From: Natronosalvus halobius
GTDB lineage: Archaea > Halobacteriota > Halobacteria > Halobacteriales > Natrialbaceae
Length of the DNA: 64,000 nucleotides
NCBI RefSeq assembly: GCF_024138145.1
Contig: NZ_CP099997.1
Location: forward strand, 1,302,001 to 1,366,000
Direction: 5' to 3'
Shown: positions 10,411 to 53,565 of the stretch, one piece after another
How the letters are laid out: each line of letters begins with the position of its first letter
Position numbering within the stretch: the stretch's first letter is position 1
Program-made: the position numbers and the translations under genes
The notes under the pieces: model-generated
Seen by the model: the letters and a program-made list of their open reading frames with translations, nothing else
Told to the model about the DNA's origin: nothing
Databases searched by the model: none

Positions 10411-11994
10411 ATGTCAGACCACAGCCGACGAACGTTTCTCCGGCGTACCGGGCTAACGATCACCGCCGGAAGTGCCCTCGCCGCAGCGAGTGGGACGACT
10501 GCCGTCGCGTCGACGACGGCCGCCGACCCGGGCGACTGGCCTTCCCTCGGAGGGAGGCCCGGAAACAACGCACGGGTCGCATCGGGAATCGACGACCCCG
10601 GGTCTCTCGAGGTCGCCTGGTCGTGTGACTGCGGCGGCCACGTCGCGGTCGTCGACGAGACGGTCTACCTCCGAGCGGACGACGGCTCCGTACACGCCTA
10701 CGAAGCCGAGGACGGGTCACAGCTGTGGCAAACCGACGACCTCGGCGCCGATCGAACGCCAGCGTTTGCCGACGGAACCGTCTACGTCGGCGGCGACGGC
10801 CTCACCGCGGTCGACGCCGAAGACGGCGACGTTCGCTGGCAGCGAGACCTCGAGTACAGCGACGGAATTCGGTCGCCTAACGTCGCGGACGAAACCGTGT
10901 TCGTCGTCGGCGACGGCGTCCTCTACGCGATCGACGCCACAAGCGGCGAAGCGCACTGGCAGTTCGAACCGGACGACGGGGAGCTACACGAAATGTCGGT
11001 CCCGATCGACGACGGCGTCGTTTTCGTCGCGGACGAGACGCGCCTGTACGCCCGTGAGGCCAGCGACGGCTCCGAACGCTGGACGTTCGACCTCGAGGCC
11101 AACGACGACGATGGACAGTTCAGTACGGTCACGCCGGTCGTTGACTATGGCATCCTGGCCGTCGGTTACCAGGACGAATCGGACGCTGGACTCTCCTACC
11201 ACGATGTCGAATTCGGAGGTCGAATCGCTCGCGTGGCCGGTCGAGCGCACAACCACCCACCCGTGATCGGCTCTGAACTCGTCTACACCGTCGACGGGAC
11301 GAACAACGACACCGCTACGGGCCACGACATCGAGACGGGAGAGAAAGCGTGGGATCCAGAGCCGTCCGGCGAAGGGACCAGTCCGCTCATCATCGACGAA
11401 GAGCACGTTTACGCCGGTCTCGAAAGTGGCCCAGGATCGACCGATGGGGACGAGGAGTCCTGGATGCGGTTTTTCGCGTTCGACGCCTGGGACGGCTCCG
11501 TCGAGTGGGAGAGAGACACCAGGACGGTACTGAGTCCCCTCGCACTCGTCGACGAAACGCTCTACGTTGGGAGCGTCGACGGCGAGGCGCTGGCTGCGTT
11601 GCGACCGGACGGCGAGGGCAACGACGGAAAGAACGGAGACGACGAGTCCGACGGGGGGAGCGAGATCGACGATGATACCGACGAAGAGGACGGCTCCAAC
11701 GAAAGAGGGGATTCTGACGACGGTGGTTCCGAAAACGATTCCAGTGATATCAGCGAGGGCAACGAGAGCGACAGTACCGACGACTCGAGCGGTTCTGATG
11801 AGACGGACGACTCCAACGACACCATCGGCTCCAACGACTCCAGCGACGAATCCGCAACCGAAGATGGCGGATCGTCGGCCGACGAAACGGACGACTCGAC
11901 CCCCGGATTCACCGGCGTTGGCGCGCTCGCCGGCGGTGGACTCGCCTTCGAGTGGCTGCGACGCCGAGTCGACGAAGACGAACACGAGGAGTAA
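10411..11994 (+). CDS. Exported PQQ-like beta-propeller protein
   Basis: A 527-residue protein. A Tat signal (residues 1-34, RRTFLRRTG then an Ala-rich stretch) directs export of the folded protein. The middle (about 45-400) contains repeated blades of the type VYxGxxDGxxYALDAxDGxxxW, the PQQ/YncE-like propeller. A Ser/Asp/Glu/Asn-rich linker of about 110 residues follows. The C-terminus PGFTGVGALAGGGLAFEW plus RRR resembles a PGF-CTERM anchor but has a weak hydrophobic core and an acidic extension. A surface location is likely. Substrate and role are unknown, and no cofactor-binding residues are obvious. Confidence 0.8.
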   Translation: MSDHSRRTFLRRTGLTITAGSALAAASGTTAVASTTAADPGDWPSLGGRPGNNARVASGIDDPGSLEVAWSCDCGGHVAVVDETVYLRADDGSVHAYEAEDGSQLWQTDDLGADRTPAFADGTVYVGGDGLTAVDAEDGDVRWQRDLEYSDGIRSPNVADETVFVVGDGVLYAIDATSGEAHWQFEPDDGELHEMSVPIDDGVVFVADETRLYAREASDGSERWTFDLEANDDDGQFSTVTPVVDYGILAVGYQDESDAGLSYHDVEFGGRIARVAGRAHNHPPVIGSELVYTVDGTNNDTATGHDIETGEKAWDPEPSGEGTSPLIIDEEHVYAGLESGPGSTDGDEESWMRFFAFDAWDGSVEWERDTRTVLSPLALVDETLYVGSVDGEALAALRPDGEGNDGKNGDDESDGGSEIDDDTDEEDGSNERGDSDDGGSENDSSDISEGNESDSTDDSSGSDETDDSNDTIGSNDSSDESATEDGGSSADETDDSTPGFTGVGALAGGGLAFEWLRRRVDEDEHEE

Positions 11995-48855: not shown

Positions 48856-49209
48856 CCGTTTCCGGCCCGTTCCGCACATCGTACCGCCTCCAGCAGAATA
48901 GACGACGTGTTCGCTCACATTCACACCCAGACCTACGCCTGCACCTACACTCACACCCAGACCTACGCCTGCACCTACACTCACACCCAGACCTACGCCT
49001 GCACCTACACTCACACCCAGACCTACGCCTGCACCTACACTCACACCCACACTTCGACCCGATCAGTCGCGTCCCGAGACTCGAAATCCAGCGCCAGCTG
49101 ACAGTCTTGGGCAACGAAACAGCGGGGATAGAATTAACTCCCCCCAGACGGATTCACAATCAGTTGTGGACCGTGCTGGACCAGTACGGTTCGCGTCTAT
49201 CACGCATCT
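48856..49209. other. 354-bp gap dominated by a minisatellite
   Basis: Apart from the 30-bp repeat array at 48921-49049, the gap has a TATA-like GAATTAAC at about 49130, 80 bp before the HEAT-PQQ start. No gene is supported. Confidence 0.5.
48921..49049. repeat. 30-bp minisatellite, four perfect copies
   Basis: The unit starting ACCTACGCCTGCACCTACAC is found without any change at 48931, 48961, 48991 and 49021, preceded by the last 10 bases of another copy. The unit itself is built from CACCTACACTCACACC-like words. Perfect identity suggests recent expansion. There are no spacers, so it is not a CRISPR. Confidence 0.92.
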
Positions 49210-52200
49210 ATGCCACGAAACGACCCTTCGAACCCGGACGACCCCGTGCTCGGAAAGCCGGGCGACGACCTCGAGGTTACCCTCGGGATCGACCAACTAC
49301 AGCGCTTTCTCTCTGCCGACGACCCCGACGTTCGGACGTACGCGGCCAGCACGCTCGCCGGCGAGGCGGCCGATCGACCGCGCGAGGTCTGCTCGGCAGT
49401 TCCAGCATTGATCGACCGACTCGAGGACGAACCGTCGGTTCGGTCTCACGCGACGGCGGCGCTCGCGGCAATCGCCCGGGACCACCCGGAGGAAGTCACG
49501 GCTGCCGTCCCAGCGCTGACCGATCGACTCGAGGGATCGACCGCCGTCCGCGCCGACGCCGTCGACGCCCTCGCGTCCATCGGTGACGCGGAGCCGACCA
49601 CGTTGCTCGAATCGGTCGACGCACTGGCAGCGATCGTTTCCGACGAGGAAGAGGACCAGGACCACGACGATGCCGAAGACGATTTCGTCTGCCGGCGAGC
49701 GGCCGCCGCGCTGGCGGCCGTCGCCGACGTCGACGCCCAGGCGGTCAGGCCCGTGGCAGCCTCGATCGCTACGGCCGCCGACCACGAGGATGAGGCAGTT
49801 CGCGGACACGCCGTTCGAGCCCTGCGAGCCGTCGCCGAATCGGACCCGGCCGCACTCGCCGCGACGACCGACGCCGCCTCGCCCCTGCTCGAGCGACTCG
49901 TCGACGACGGAGCGATCCGGGCCGACGCGATGGCCGCACTCCGCGCGCTCGCGGTCGGAGACGACCCCGCGCCGGTCGCCATCGAACCCGTCGCGAAACG
50001 ACTCGACGACCAGAGCCCAAACGTCCGCCAGGACGCCGCGATCACGCTGATGGCAGTCGCAACCGAGACGCCAGAGCGGGCGTCGACCGCACTCGATCCG
50101 CTCACGGCGGCGCTCACCGACACCCCCTCGATTCGCGAATCGGCCATCCGCGCACTCCGACACGTCGCCACTGCAGACCCCGCGCTGACGGGCCTCGAGT
50201 CGTCCGTTCCGGCCGTCACGGATCGCCTGACTGACGTCCAGGCGGCCGTCCGAACCGACGCGGCGGCGACCCTGCGCGCCGTCGCCGACGAACGGCCAGC
50301 TACCGTTCGGTCGTCGGTCGTCGCGCTGGCCGCCGTCCTGGAGGACGACGCCATCGAAACCCGCGAACACGCTGCCGCCGCAATCGAGGCCGTTGCCGGG
50401 GAACACCCCGACGCCGTCGCGCCCGTCGTGGCGGAACTCGCGGCTCGCCTCGAGGAGGACGAGGGTGAAGACGAAGACGAAGACGAAGACGGGACGTCGG
50501 TGCGGGCGGACGTCGCTCGAGCCCTGGCCGCCGTCGCGGCGGCCAACCCCGACGCCGTTCGCGTCGAGGTTCATGCCCTCGCCGCGTGCCTGGACGAACC
50601 GAACGAGTCAGTCAGACGGCCAGCCGCCGACGCGCTCGGTGCCGTCGCTCTCGACGGCGACGTCGACCAGGCGGTCGTCGAACATTCCCTCGCACAGCTC
50701 GAGGAAGGGCGAGGTGAAGAGACCGACACGTGGAGACAGGGCCACGCCGCCCGGTCGCTGGCGGAGGTCGCCGAGGAGCAGGTTGCGAACGTCCATCCGG
50801 CCGTTCGATCCCTCTCGAGCCGTCTGGCAGCCGACACCGTCGCCGTCCGACGAGCGGCTTCTCGCGACCTCGCCGGCGTCGCCACCGAACGGCCGCGAGA
50901 CGTCCGTTCGGCCGTCGAACCGCTGGCGACTCGCCTCGAAGACGACGACGCGAGTGTCCGCAACAACGCCGCGATCGCCCTCCAGAGACTGGGGGAGGCC
51001 TACCCCGAGGACGTTCGGTCGGCGCTGGGCGCGCTATTCGGATCGGTGGACGATCCCGACCGGACCGTCCGGACGAACGTCGTCGCCGCGCTCACCACGA
51101 TCGGTCCCGACGGCGACCGCATTCGATCGCCGGCTCGGGCGCTGGCAGTCGCCGAAACCACAGCCGACGACGCCTCGATTCGAACCGGCGCACTCGAGGC
51201 CCTCGGCGTGTTGCTCCCGGAGACCGGCGACGAAACGACCGCCGTCGTCGACGCCGTTCTCGATCGACTTGCCGACGACTGTCGACCAGCCGAACGGAGT
51301 GCCGCGCTCGAGGCACTCGAAACTCTCCTCACGAGACCCATCGAGACCGATCCGACGCCGACCGAGGCCGTCCTGGACCAGCTCGACGACGGGACGACGG
51401 CGAGAACGACCGCCCTGGCCCGTTCGCTGGCCGACCTCGCTCGCGTCGATACGGCCATCGTGGAACCGCTCGCCTCGAGCCTGCTCGAACGGCTGGCGAA
51501 CGCCGGACGACTCGAACGTCAGGCCCACCTTCGAACACTCTCGGCCGTAGCCGATGGGTCGGGTCGGTCCGTCGTGGCGCTCCTCCTCGAGTCCGCAGAC
51601 GATCGGTCGATGGAGGCAGTCGCGGCCGACCTCGCGACGCTCGCGGCGGTCGAATCCGAGTCAGTGAGCCAGAACGCGGACGCCGTCGCCGACCTCCTCG
51701 AACACGAGACGACGGCCGTTCGCGGCTACGCGACGCTCTCGCTCGCGACCGTCGCCGTCCTCCAGGACGACTCGACGCTCGAGACGGAGTTCGACGCCGT
51801 CGAGGACCGACTGGTCGACGCCGCGTCGCTCGTGGCCGGCGGGGAGACACCGACGCACACGGACGCGATCAACAATCAGCTCTCGGGACTCGGTCGCCGC
51901 GTCGACGGCGACCCCTGGGCGGCCGGAATCGCGGTGCTCGGACTGTCGGTGCTCGCCGAGTGCTCCGAGCAGCTACGACCGACGGCGCTGTCGAAGGTTG
52001 CCGCGGGACTCGATGTCGATTCGCCCGTGGTTCGGACGACGACGGCTCGAACCCTCGCGGCAGTCGCCGAAGACGACTCCGGTGGGTTCGAGTCGAGCGT
52101 CCCGGCGCTCGTCGACGCGCTCCAGGACGAAGACGACAGCGTTCGAGCGTTCGCCACTCGCACGCTGTCCGCACTGGCGCCTCGCGGCGACGTAGACCTC

Positions 52201-53565
52201 GCGGACGCGGTCGACGTGCTCGTCGCTCGACTGGCCGATCCCGATAGCCGCGTCAGGGAACAGGCGTGTCACAGCCTCGGGTTCGTGGGCGTCGAGCCGT
52301 CGACCCTCGAGTCGCTCGGAGCCGATCCGGTCCCGGCCGTCGCCGAGGCGGCCGTGCGGGCGCAGAGTCGGTCGACGAGTGCGCGCGAACCCATCGACGA
52401 CCACGACGAGTGGGCCGACTGGAGCGCCACTCGAGCCGACGCCGCACGGACCGGGGCCGTTCCGGACGGCAACCCGCTCTCGTCGGCGGTCGACGTCCAG
52501 TGGCGGTTCGATCCAGAGGTGCGAACGACCGCACCGACCGTCGTCGCCGACACCGTGTACGTCGGCACCGACAGCGGTCGCGTGCTGGCGCTCTCGCTCG
52601 AGACGGGCGACGAGCGCTGGGGGTATCAGACCGACGGTATCGTGATCGGGGCGCCCACGGTCGTCGGCGAGGAGGTCTACGCCACGAGCGCGGACGGGAC
52701 GGTGTACGCGCTCGACCGAGAGACCGGCGAACGAAGCTGGCAGTACCGGCTGGAGGCGACCTGCCGGGTCGCCCCGGTCGTCGACGACGGAACCGTCTAT
52801 GCCGACGACGACGGCGGAACGGTGTACGCCCTCGAGGCCGAGTCAGGATGCGTCGAGTGGACGCTCGCGACCGACGGGACCGCGGCCGTCGCGAAGGTCG
52901 CCGTCACCAGCGGCGGCGTCTTCGCCGGAACGGCTGACGGAATCGTTCGACGCCTCGACGGCGAATCCGGCACGCTCGAGTGGACGCGCGACATCCGGGC
53001 AGCGGTCGACGTCGAGGGTGACGGTGATGGCGACGGTGACGTCGGCGCTGGCGTGAACGCCGAGGGAGCCAGCTATCTAGCCGCCACGGACGACCTCGTC
53101 GTCGCCACGGCCGGCGACAGTCTCTACGCCCTCGAGGCGGCCGACGGCACGATTCGCTGGCGATTCGACACCGGCGGCGTCCTCGAGGCCCCGGCGGTCG
53201 CCCACGGAACGGTCTACGTCGCCAGCGGCGATCTGAGCGTGTACGCGGTCGACCTGGCCTCGGGCGCCGAGCGGTTCCGGTTCGACACCGGCGGGGCGAC
53301 GCCGACCGCACCGGCCGTCGTCGACGGCACGTGCTGTGTCGGTACCGACGAAGGGGTCATCTACGCGCTGGATGCGAGCGACGGCGCGGCCCGGTGGCGA
53401 TACGACACCGAAACCGGGGCGGCCCTCGAGGGGCTGACGGTCGCGAGCGGCCTGCTGTGTACCGCCGGCCCCGGCGGCATCGCCGCCCTCGGCGACGACC
53501 AGTCCTCGTGGGCCGATCGTATCGGATTCTCCGGGCTGTTCACCCGGTTCGGCGCGAATCAGTAG
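49210..53565 (+). CDS. Giant HEAT-repeat / PQQ beta-propeller fusion protein
   Basis: A 1,451-residue protein without a signal peptide or membrane helix, so probably cytoplasmic. Residues 25-1060 are an unbroken run of HEAT-like repeats of about 36-40 residues (VRxxAAxALAAVA...P..V...V..L...L.DE). They are broken only by acidic loops near 142-156 and 418-432. Residues 1067-1440 form a beta-propeller of eight PQQ-like blades (VYVGTDSGRVLAL, VYATSADGTVYALDRETG, and so on). HEAT arrays bind proteins; propellers of this type bind proteins or ligands. The fusion suggests a large scaffold. Its partner is unknown. Codon use is ordinary for the genome. Confidence 0.85.
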   Translation: MPRNDPSNPDDPVLGKPGDDLEVTLGIDQLQRFLSADDPDVRTYAASTLAGEAADRPREVCSAVPALIDRLEDEPSVRSHATAALAAIARDHPEEVTAAVPALTDRLEGSTAVRADAVDALASIGDAEPTTLLESVDALAAIVSDEEEDQDHDDAEDDFVCRRAAAALAAVADVDAQAVRPVAASIATAADHEDEAVRGHAVRALRAVAESDPAALAATTDAASPLLERLVDDGAIRADAMAALRALAVGDDPAPVAIEPVAKRLDDQSPNVRQDAAITLMAVATETPERASTALDPLTAALTDTPSIRESAIRALRHVATADPALTGLESSVPAVTDRLTDVQAAVRTDAAATLRAVADERPATVRSSVVALAAVLEDDAIETREHAAAAIEAVAGEHPDAVAPVVAELAARLEEDEGEDEDEDEDGTSVRADVARALAAVAAANPDAVRVEVHALAACLDEPNESVRRPAADALGAVALDGDVDQAVVEHSLAQLEEGRGEETDTWRQGHAARSLAEVAEEQVANVHPAVRSLSSRLAADTVAVRRAASRDLAGVATERPRDVRSAVEPLATRLEDDDASVRNNAAIALQRLGEAYPEDVRSALGALFGSVDDPDRTVRTNVVAALTTIGPDGDRIRSPARALAVAETTADDASIRTGALEALGVLLPETGDETTAVVDAVLDRLADDCRPAERSAALEALETLLTRPIETDPTPTEAVLDQLDDGTTARTTALARSLADLARVDTAIVEPLASSLLERLANAGRLERQAHLRTLSAVADGSGRSVVALLLESADDRSMEAVAADLATLAAVESESVSQNADAVADLLEHETTAVRGYATLSLATVAVLQDDSTLETEFDAVEDRLVDAASLVAGGETPTHTDAINNQLSGLGRRVDGDPWAAGIAVLGLSVLAECSEQLRPTALSKVAAGLDVDSPVVRTTTARTLAAVAEDDSGGFESSVPALVDALQDEDDSVRAFATRTLSALAPRGDVDLADAVDVLVARLADPDSRVREQACHSLGFVGVEPSTLESLGADPVPAVAEAAVRAQSRSTSAREPIDDHDEWADWSATRADAARTGAVPDGNPLSSAVDVQWRFDPEVRTTAPTVVADTVYVGTDSGRVLALSLETGDERWGYQTDGIVIGAPTVVGEEVYATSADGTVYALDRETGERSWQYRLEATCRVAPVVDDGTVYADDDGGTVYALEAESGCVEWTLATDGTAAVAKVAVTSGGVFAGTADGIVRRLDGESGTLEWTRDIRAAVDVEGDGDGDGDVGAGVNAEGASYLAATDDLVVATAGDSLYALEAADGTIRWRFDTGGVLEAPAVAHGTVYVASGDLSVYAVDLASGAERFRFDTGGATPTAPAVVDGTCCVGTDEGVIYALDASDGAARWRYDTETGAALEGLTVASGLLCTAGPGGIAALGDDQSSWADRIGFSGLFTRFGANQ

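Follow-up and report, generated by a model that had tools for sequence, protein, structure and literature searches.

A HEAT-repeat solenoid fused to an eight-bladed PQQ-type propeller in the Natrialbaceae: a candidate intracellular scaffold

Introduction

The haloarchaeon Natronosalvus halobius carries a single open reading frame in which a long array of HEAT-like repeats is joined to a propeller of the PQQ type (the frame lies in a stretch of 64 000 nucleotides, here called the window, to which all positions refer). This locus raises the question of whether the frame represents one genuine gene and, if so, what an intracellular protein of this design might do. The best-known giant intracellular proteins that combine an α-solenoid with a propeller are eukaryotic. 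The original prediction knew of no characterized protein with such a design, and this agrees with the open-access literature, in which no paper on the HEAT–PQQ fusion was found.

Domain layout and predicted structure

The frame runs from ATG to stop over 1451 codons and its product is an acidic protein of 150 kDa (pI 4.19) with only four lysines. The coordinates and overall layout that had been read from the sequence proved to be right on ORF and Pfam analysis, and the proposed arrangement of ∼1035 residues of HEAT-like repeats followed by an eight-blade propeller is borne out by both Pfam and AlphaFold2. The parts of the gene are as follows.

49210–53565, + strand: coding sequence of the HEAT–PQQ fusion, 1451 residues (ORF, orthologues, dN/dS)
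49270–52389, + strand: HEAT/ARM-type α-solenoid, residues ∼21–1060, ∼59 helices (Pfam, AlphaFold2, Foldseek, cap conservation)
51838–51939, + strand: conserved insertion in the solenoid, residues 877–910 (alignment and conservation profile)
52390–52488, + strand: solenoid–propeller linker, residues ∼1061–1093, of low confidence and probably flexible (AlphaFold2)
52489–53499, + strand: eight-bladed PQQ/BamB-type propeller, residues ∼1094–1430 (strand list, VIA-align, Pfam PQQ_2)
53506–53562, + strand: C-terminal tail, residues 1433–1451, predicted to be exposed (orthologue alignments, dN/dS, pLDDT below 50)

Stretches matching the Pfam models HEAT_2, Cnd1 and HEAT_EZ extend across the N-terminal ∼1035 residues, with PDS5 also among the matches to the solenoid; the scores for HEAT_2 (124 bits, cut-off 27.7) and HEAT (70 bits, cut-off 23.5) place this region in the HEAT-repeat superfamily. 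PQQ_2 matches residues ∼1100–1440 with an E value of 2.8e-44. No catalytic domain was found in the fusion with domain profiles or in the structure models.

Two overlapping AlphaFold2 models, built from alignments of 29 orthologues, span the protein: residues 1–790 (mean pLDDT 87.9, pTM 0.60, 42 helices) and residues 700–1451 (pLDDT 81.8, pTM 0.52). Combined, they give ∼59 helices up to residue 1059, or ∼27–29 HEAT pairs, followed by a propeller with seven four-strand blades and an eighth of three strands that is completed by the first strand (velcro closure). The pLDDT falls below 50 in the linker (1060–1080) and in the tail (1433–1451), so that the relative orientation of the domains is not fixed by the models; at these pTM values domain placement is too uncertain for a composite binding surface to be defined.

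Structural comparison of the propeller with VIA-align gave Z scores of 36–39 and an r.m.s.d. of ∼2.2–2.7 over ∼320–330 residues against tetrathionate hydrolase, YxaL and BamB, but WD40 propellers score equally high, so that assignment to the PQQ type rests on sequence. The fold is the BamB-type eight-blade PQQ-like propeller. BamB and YxaL-type propellers share the fold and the number of blades (∼23% identity), but they are exported or lipid-anchored and lack a HEAT array, and the BamB model itself (TIGR03300) scored 138.9 bits against a cut-off of 285. A Foldseek search with the solenoid returned CAND1, SF3B1 and karyopherins with TM-scores of ∼0.2–0.3, which indicate a shared fold class alone; these eukaryotic proteins (CAND1, SF3B1 and importin-β/karyopherins) have a long HEAT/ARM solenoid in common with the fusion and no propeller. 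Among the matches listed by pdb_via, no chain spans both solenoid and propeller, a result of little weight as propeller matches fill the list. A match to the DVU0298 family (NF045662), in which seven repeat stretches add up to 106.7 bits against a cut-off of 75 for a ∼213-residue domain, probably reflects repeat matching, and a PADLOC match to OloA (24.8 bits) was set aside as a weak HEAT repeat match.

Integrity of the gene

When 125 Natrialbaceae genomes were searched, 33 intact single-frame copies of ∼1390 residues or more were recovered (30 translated loci together with genomes G107, G109 and G113). They are distributed over six genera (g1, g8, g10, g16, g22 and g24), and the named records among them include Natronosalvus, Natronorubrum, Natrinema, Natronolimnohabitans and Haloterrigena; full-length identity to these relatives is 43–90%. 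Three further copies (G026, G059 and G116) are partial and apparently lie at contig ends. One genome (G024, locus L099) carries a copy with seven frame-breaking indels, some of them near the junction, which leave three short frames. Its 92%-identical sister in G025 is intact, which points to decay or an assembly or sequencing error in G024 rather than to ancestral separate genes. In G077 the first ∼50 residues are missing in frame with the upstream element (described below) present, probably a local error.

Simple Nei–Gojobori counts comparing the window copy with three congeners, with dS near saturation for G117, gave overall dN/dS values of 0.28–0.34; the larger parts of the gene, junction included, each fall within 0.20–0.43, and residues 1030–1110 at the junction give 0.22–0.38. 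In the three closest Natronosalvus copies (the two closest pairs) the tail is invariant at the amino-acid level. Every part tested is under purifying selection. A frame error near 52 400 joining two neighbouring genes, which the original prediction had named as a finding that would refute it, is ruled out by the 33 intact orthologues and the purifying dN/dS, and no relatives with two separate intact genes were seen among the same-family genomes searched.

Taxonomic range

Two wider samples, drawn from the order (99 genomes) and the phylum (100 genomes) and including some Natrialbaceae, had full-length matches only in Natrialbaceae, with propeller-type matches alone elsewhere. The frames inspected outside the family encode stand-alone propellers that lack HEAT repeats and often have C-terminal anchors, or a kinase–propeller protein, a haloarchaeal chain (G178, L096:4876–6153) that combines PQQ-propeller and Ser/Thr-kinase domains. 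Within the samples searched the fusion therefore appears to be confined to Natrialbaceae, with sparse occurrence outside the family possible. A two-pattern contig scan for stand-alone HEAT-only relatives with the conserved motifs (105 matches) yielded none: the 15 relatives, at 14 loci, all belong to the HEAT–PQQ fusion family. No plasmid copies covering 80% of the query were found.

Conserved elements of the protein and its location

The conservation profile, in which a few windows are high only through lineage-specific insertions in the window copy, singles out several regions. The N-terminal cap (residues 21–80), with the consensus EVTxGIDQLExFLxADDPEVREYAA opening the solenoid, is highly conserved, as are residues ∼900–920, which form part of the 877–910 insertion (GGETPxHTDxINxQLSGxGRRLDxDPWAAG). 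This insertion is a candidate binding site. Most orthologues end in the motif SW(K/A)DSISGLFTRFG, which is degraded in some lineages and is probably exposed; GLFTR(L/F)G is encoded nowhere else in the genome.

The window protein has no transmembrane helix (the highest 19-residue Kyte–Doolittle mean is 1.48). It begins with a polar, acidic N-terminus, and inspection of orthologue N-termini revealed no Sec, Tat or lipobox signal. The predicted absence of a signal peptide is therefore confirmed as judged by inspection and hydropathy rather than by a trained predictor. The accompanying generalization, that haloarchaeal PQQ propellers are usually exported, holds for some proteins of this genome, such as the one at 10411 with its Tat-like leader and others with leader- or lipobox-like starts, but not for at least two (L005 and L007) that have no leader, although their start sites are uncertain.

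Upstream element and gene neighbourhood

An alignment of upstream regions together with a genome scan identified one further feature.

49124–49139, + strand: conserved upstream element GGGGATAGAATTAACT, 71–86 bp before the ATG

A GGGRTAGAATTAACT-like block lies ∼60–90 bp before the ATG in ten aligned orthologues from several genera, with one or two bases changed in some. The 14-mer has a single perfect occurrence in the genome and one other site with a mismatch; the element occurs once in the window, where 0.08 occurrences with up to three mismatches are expected. No regulon sharing the element was found in the genome. With its AT-rich, TATA-like core it is probably the core promoter of the gene itself, and a private regulator site is possible; a σ70 scan, a model unsuited to archaea, gave no match. 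A 30 bp tandem repeat (4.4 copies, 99% alike; 48917–49049) also occupies the DNA between the preceding DUF2062 gene and the fusion gene.

Together with the C-terminal tail and the upstream element, a fixed chromosomal site near topA is newly described here. Of 21 loci, 19 have the topoisomerase gene (identified by its sequence and, for one copy, with Pfam) at most two genes upstream of the fusion and on the same strand. The exceptions are G112 and the window; in the genome to which the window belongs, topA lies ∼23 kb beyond the 3′ end of the fusion gene. The gap between topA and the fusion gene is ∼260–410 bp in the two loci measured. No conserved co-transcribed partner was found among the 21 loci examined. 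Two observations concern the surrounding genes: in G051 (genus g16; L143:23–4159) the topA frame, 1378 residues long, contains between its topoisomerase parts an intein-like insert (Intein_splicing, LAGLIDADG_3), and in two g16 genomes a 1300-residue Eco57I-type restriction–modification gene (L058:13495–17502 and its match in L059) lies just downstream of the fusion.

The gene is dispensable across species. Non-carriers in many genera keep topA unchanged, and most keep the same downstream genes (thioredoxin-like, methyltransferase and LysE-like, named from their sequences rather than by domain search) with nothing in between. Mapped on a topA tree, presence and absence require at least seven changes and are more clustered than in shuffled data (two of 500 shuffles were as low). 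The tree alone does not separate repeated loss from repeated gain, but a fixed chromosomal site combined with scattered absence is better accounted for by ancestral presence and repeated loss, to which the data point.

Functional considerations

On balance, we lean towards the fusion being an intracellular, dispensable, multivalent protein-interaction scaffold; both this role and the binding that it would entail are what we infer from the features above. Two binding-type folds, the absence of a catalytic domain and a fused frame kept in 33 genomes support such a role, as do the selectively conserved cap, 877–910 insertion and tail in a protein with no transmembrane or signal segment. A hub with partners encoded at other loci would be consistent with the lack of a conserved co-transcribed partner and with the private upstream element. 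It counts against this explanation that any protein made of HEAT repeats and a propeller would be read as a scaffold by default. On this view, some of the Natrialbaceae would retain the protein as a stand-alone intracellular scaffold: the HEAT solenoid likely wraps one or more clients, which it would contact through the N-terminal cap and the 877–910 insertion, the eight-blade propeller on its flexible linker likely binds a second partner or a peptide via its faces, and the C-terminal peptide likely docks the protein on a third partner or a membrane surface.

The tail also invites the reading, which we consider unlikely, of a peripheral membrane protein in which SISGLFTRFG forms an amphipathic helix on the inner membrane face and organizes a membrane-bound, coat-like or transport-linked complex. 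The conserved tail has I/L/F/F at i, i+3, i+4 and i+7, the pattern of a short amphipathic helix, and is not confidently packed in the AlphaFold2 model, but its hydrophobic moment is moderate (0.4–0.56 in most copies), the last 26 residues carry a net charge of +1 to −3, and some lineages (L040 and L047 among them) have lost the tail arginine or most of the motif. A β-propeller and an α-solenoid also share one chain in membrane-coat (protocoatomer) proteins, those of the Planctomycetes–Verrucomicrobia–Chlamydiae among them, but there the propeller is N-terminal and the solenoid C-terminal (PMC2799638), the reverse of the order found here (solenoid 21–1060, then propeller 1094–1430). Haloarchaeal ESCRT-associated Halo_adaptin proteins have WD40/PQQ-like propellers and are proposed cargo binders (PMC10936438); they pair the propeller with IG-like domains where the fusion has HEAT repeats. 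Snf7/ESCRT-III relatives do not track the fusion gene, being weak in three of 21 carriers and four of 19 non-carriers and above cut-off in none. The position of topA and the Cnd1 and PDS5 matches might instead suggest a chromosome-associated, condensin-subunit-like HEAT protein working with topoisomerase I, but this is improbable: these are repeat matches, SMC genes were not seen among the neighbours, the fusion gene is preceded by an upstream element of its own and, in the two loci measured, stands apart from topA by the gap given above, and topA is unchanged in non-carriers and distant in the lineage of the window.

The original prediction had left the choice between scaffold and sensor open for a cytoplasmic fusion. 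The scaffold half fits the anatomy, since an export signal is lacking, both folds are of a binding, non-enzymatic kind and the conserved tail is predicted to be exposed; any partners would be hypothetical. The sensor half, in which the HEAT array would relay the binding of a small ligand, PQQ-like or not, by the propeller, fared poorly and, if anything, is slightly more improbable than a role in DNA topology: the propeller is of the PQQ type and the kinase–propeller chain at L096 offers a precedent, but the fusion has no signalling domain, conserved ligand site or regulatory neighbour gene that we could find, the PQQ-dependent alcohol dehydrogenase model TIGR03075 scores far below its cut-off (65.3 bits against 480), and the vicinal cysteine pair at ∼1374–1375 is absent from the copies of other genera. 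AfsK-type Ser/Thr kinases likewise place a PQQ propeller in a regulatory protein, but the fusion lacks a kinase domain (no Pkinase in Pfam; score 89 bits, cut-off 1300). Export by an unrecognized route to the surface or the medium, for which the leaders or C-terminal anchors of many haloarchaeal PQQ propellers would speak, is very improbable given the N-termini and hydropathy described above. Identities as a coat protein, BamB, a PQQ dehydrogenase or an AfsK-type kinase were rejected on domain order, score or domain content.

Raptor and Vps15 are eukaryotic scaffolds in which a solenoid is followed by a C-terminal WD40 propeller, with extra domains. The likeness to the fusion is one of layout and no homology is claimed; it is a rather doubtful thought that the fusion might be a convergent archaeal scaffold of this kind, using HEAT array, propeller and docking tail to organize an intracellular multi-protein complex. 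With the favoured reading of the fusion as an intracellular scaffold, a conserved archaeal example in culturable lineages, reversed in order relative to the coat proteins, would offer a tractable system for studying the origin of such scaffolds and their use in archaeal cells. Close carriers and natural non-carriers occur in one genus (g16, Natrinema), making a comparison of phenotypes possible.
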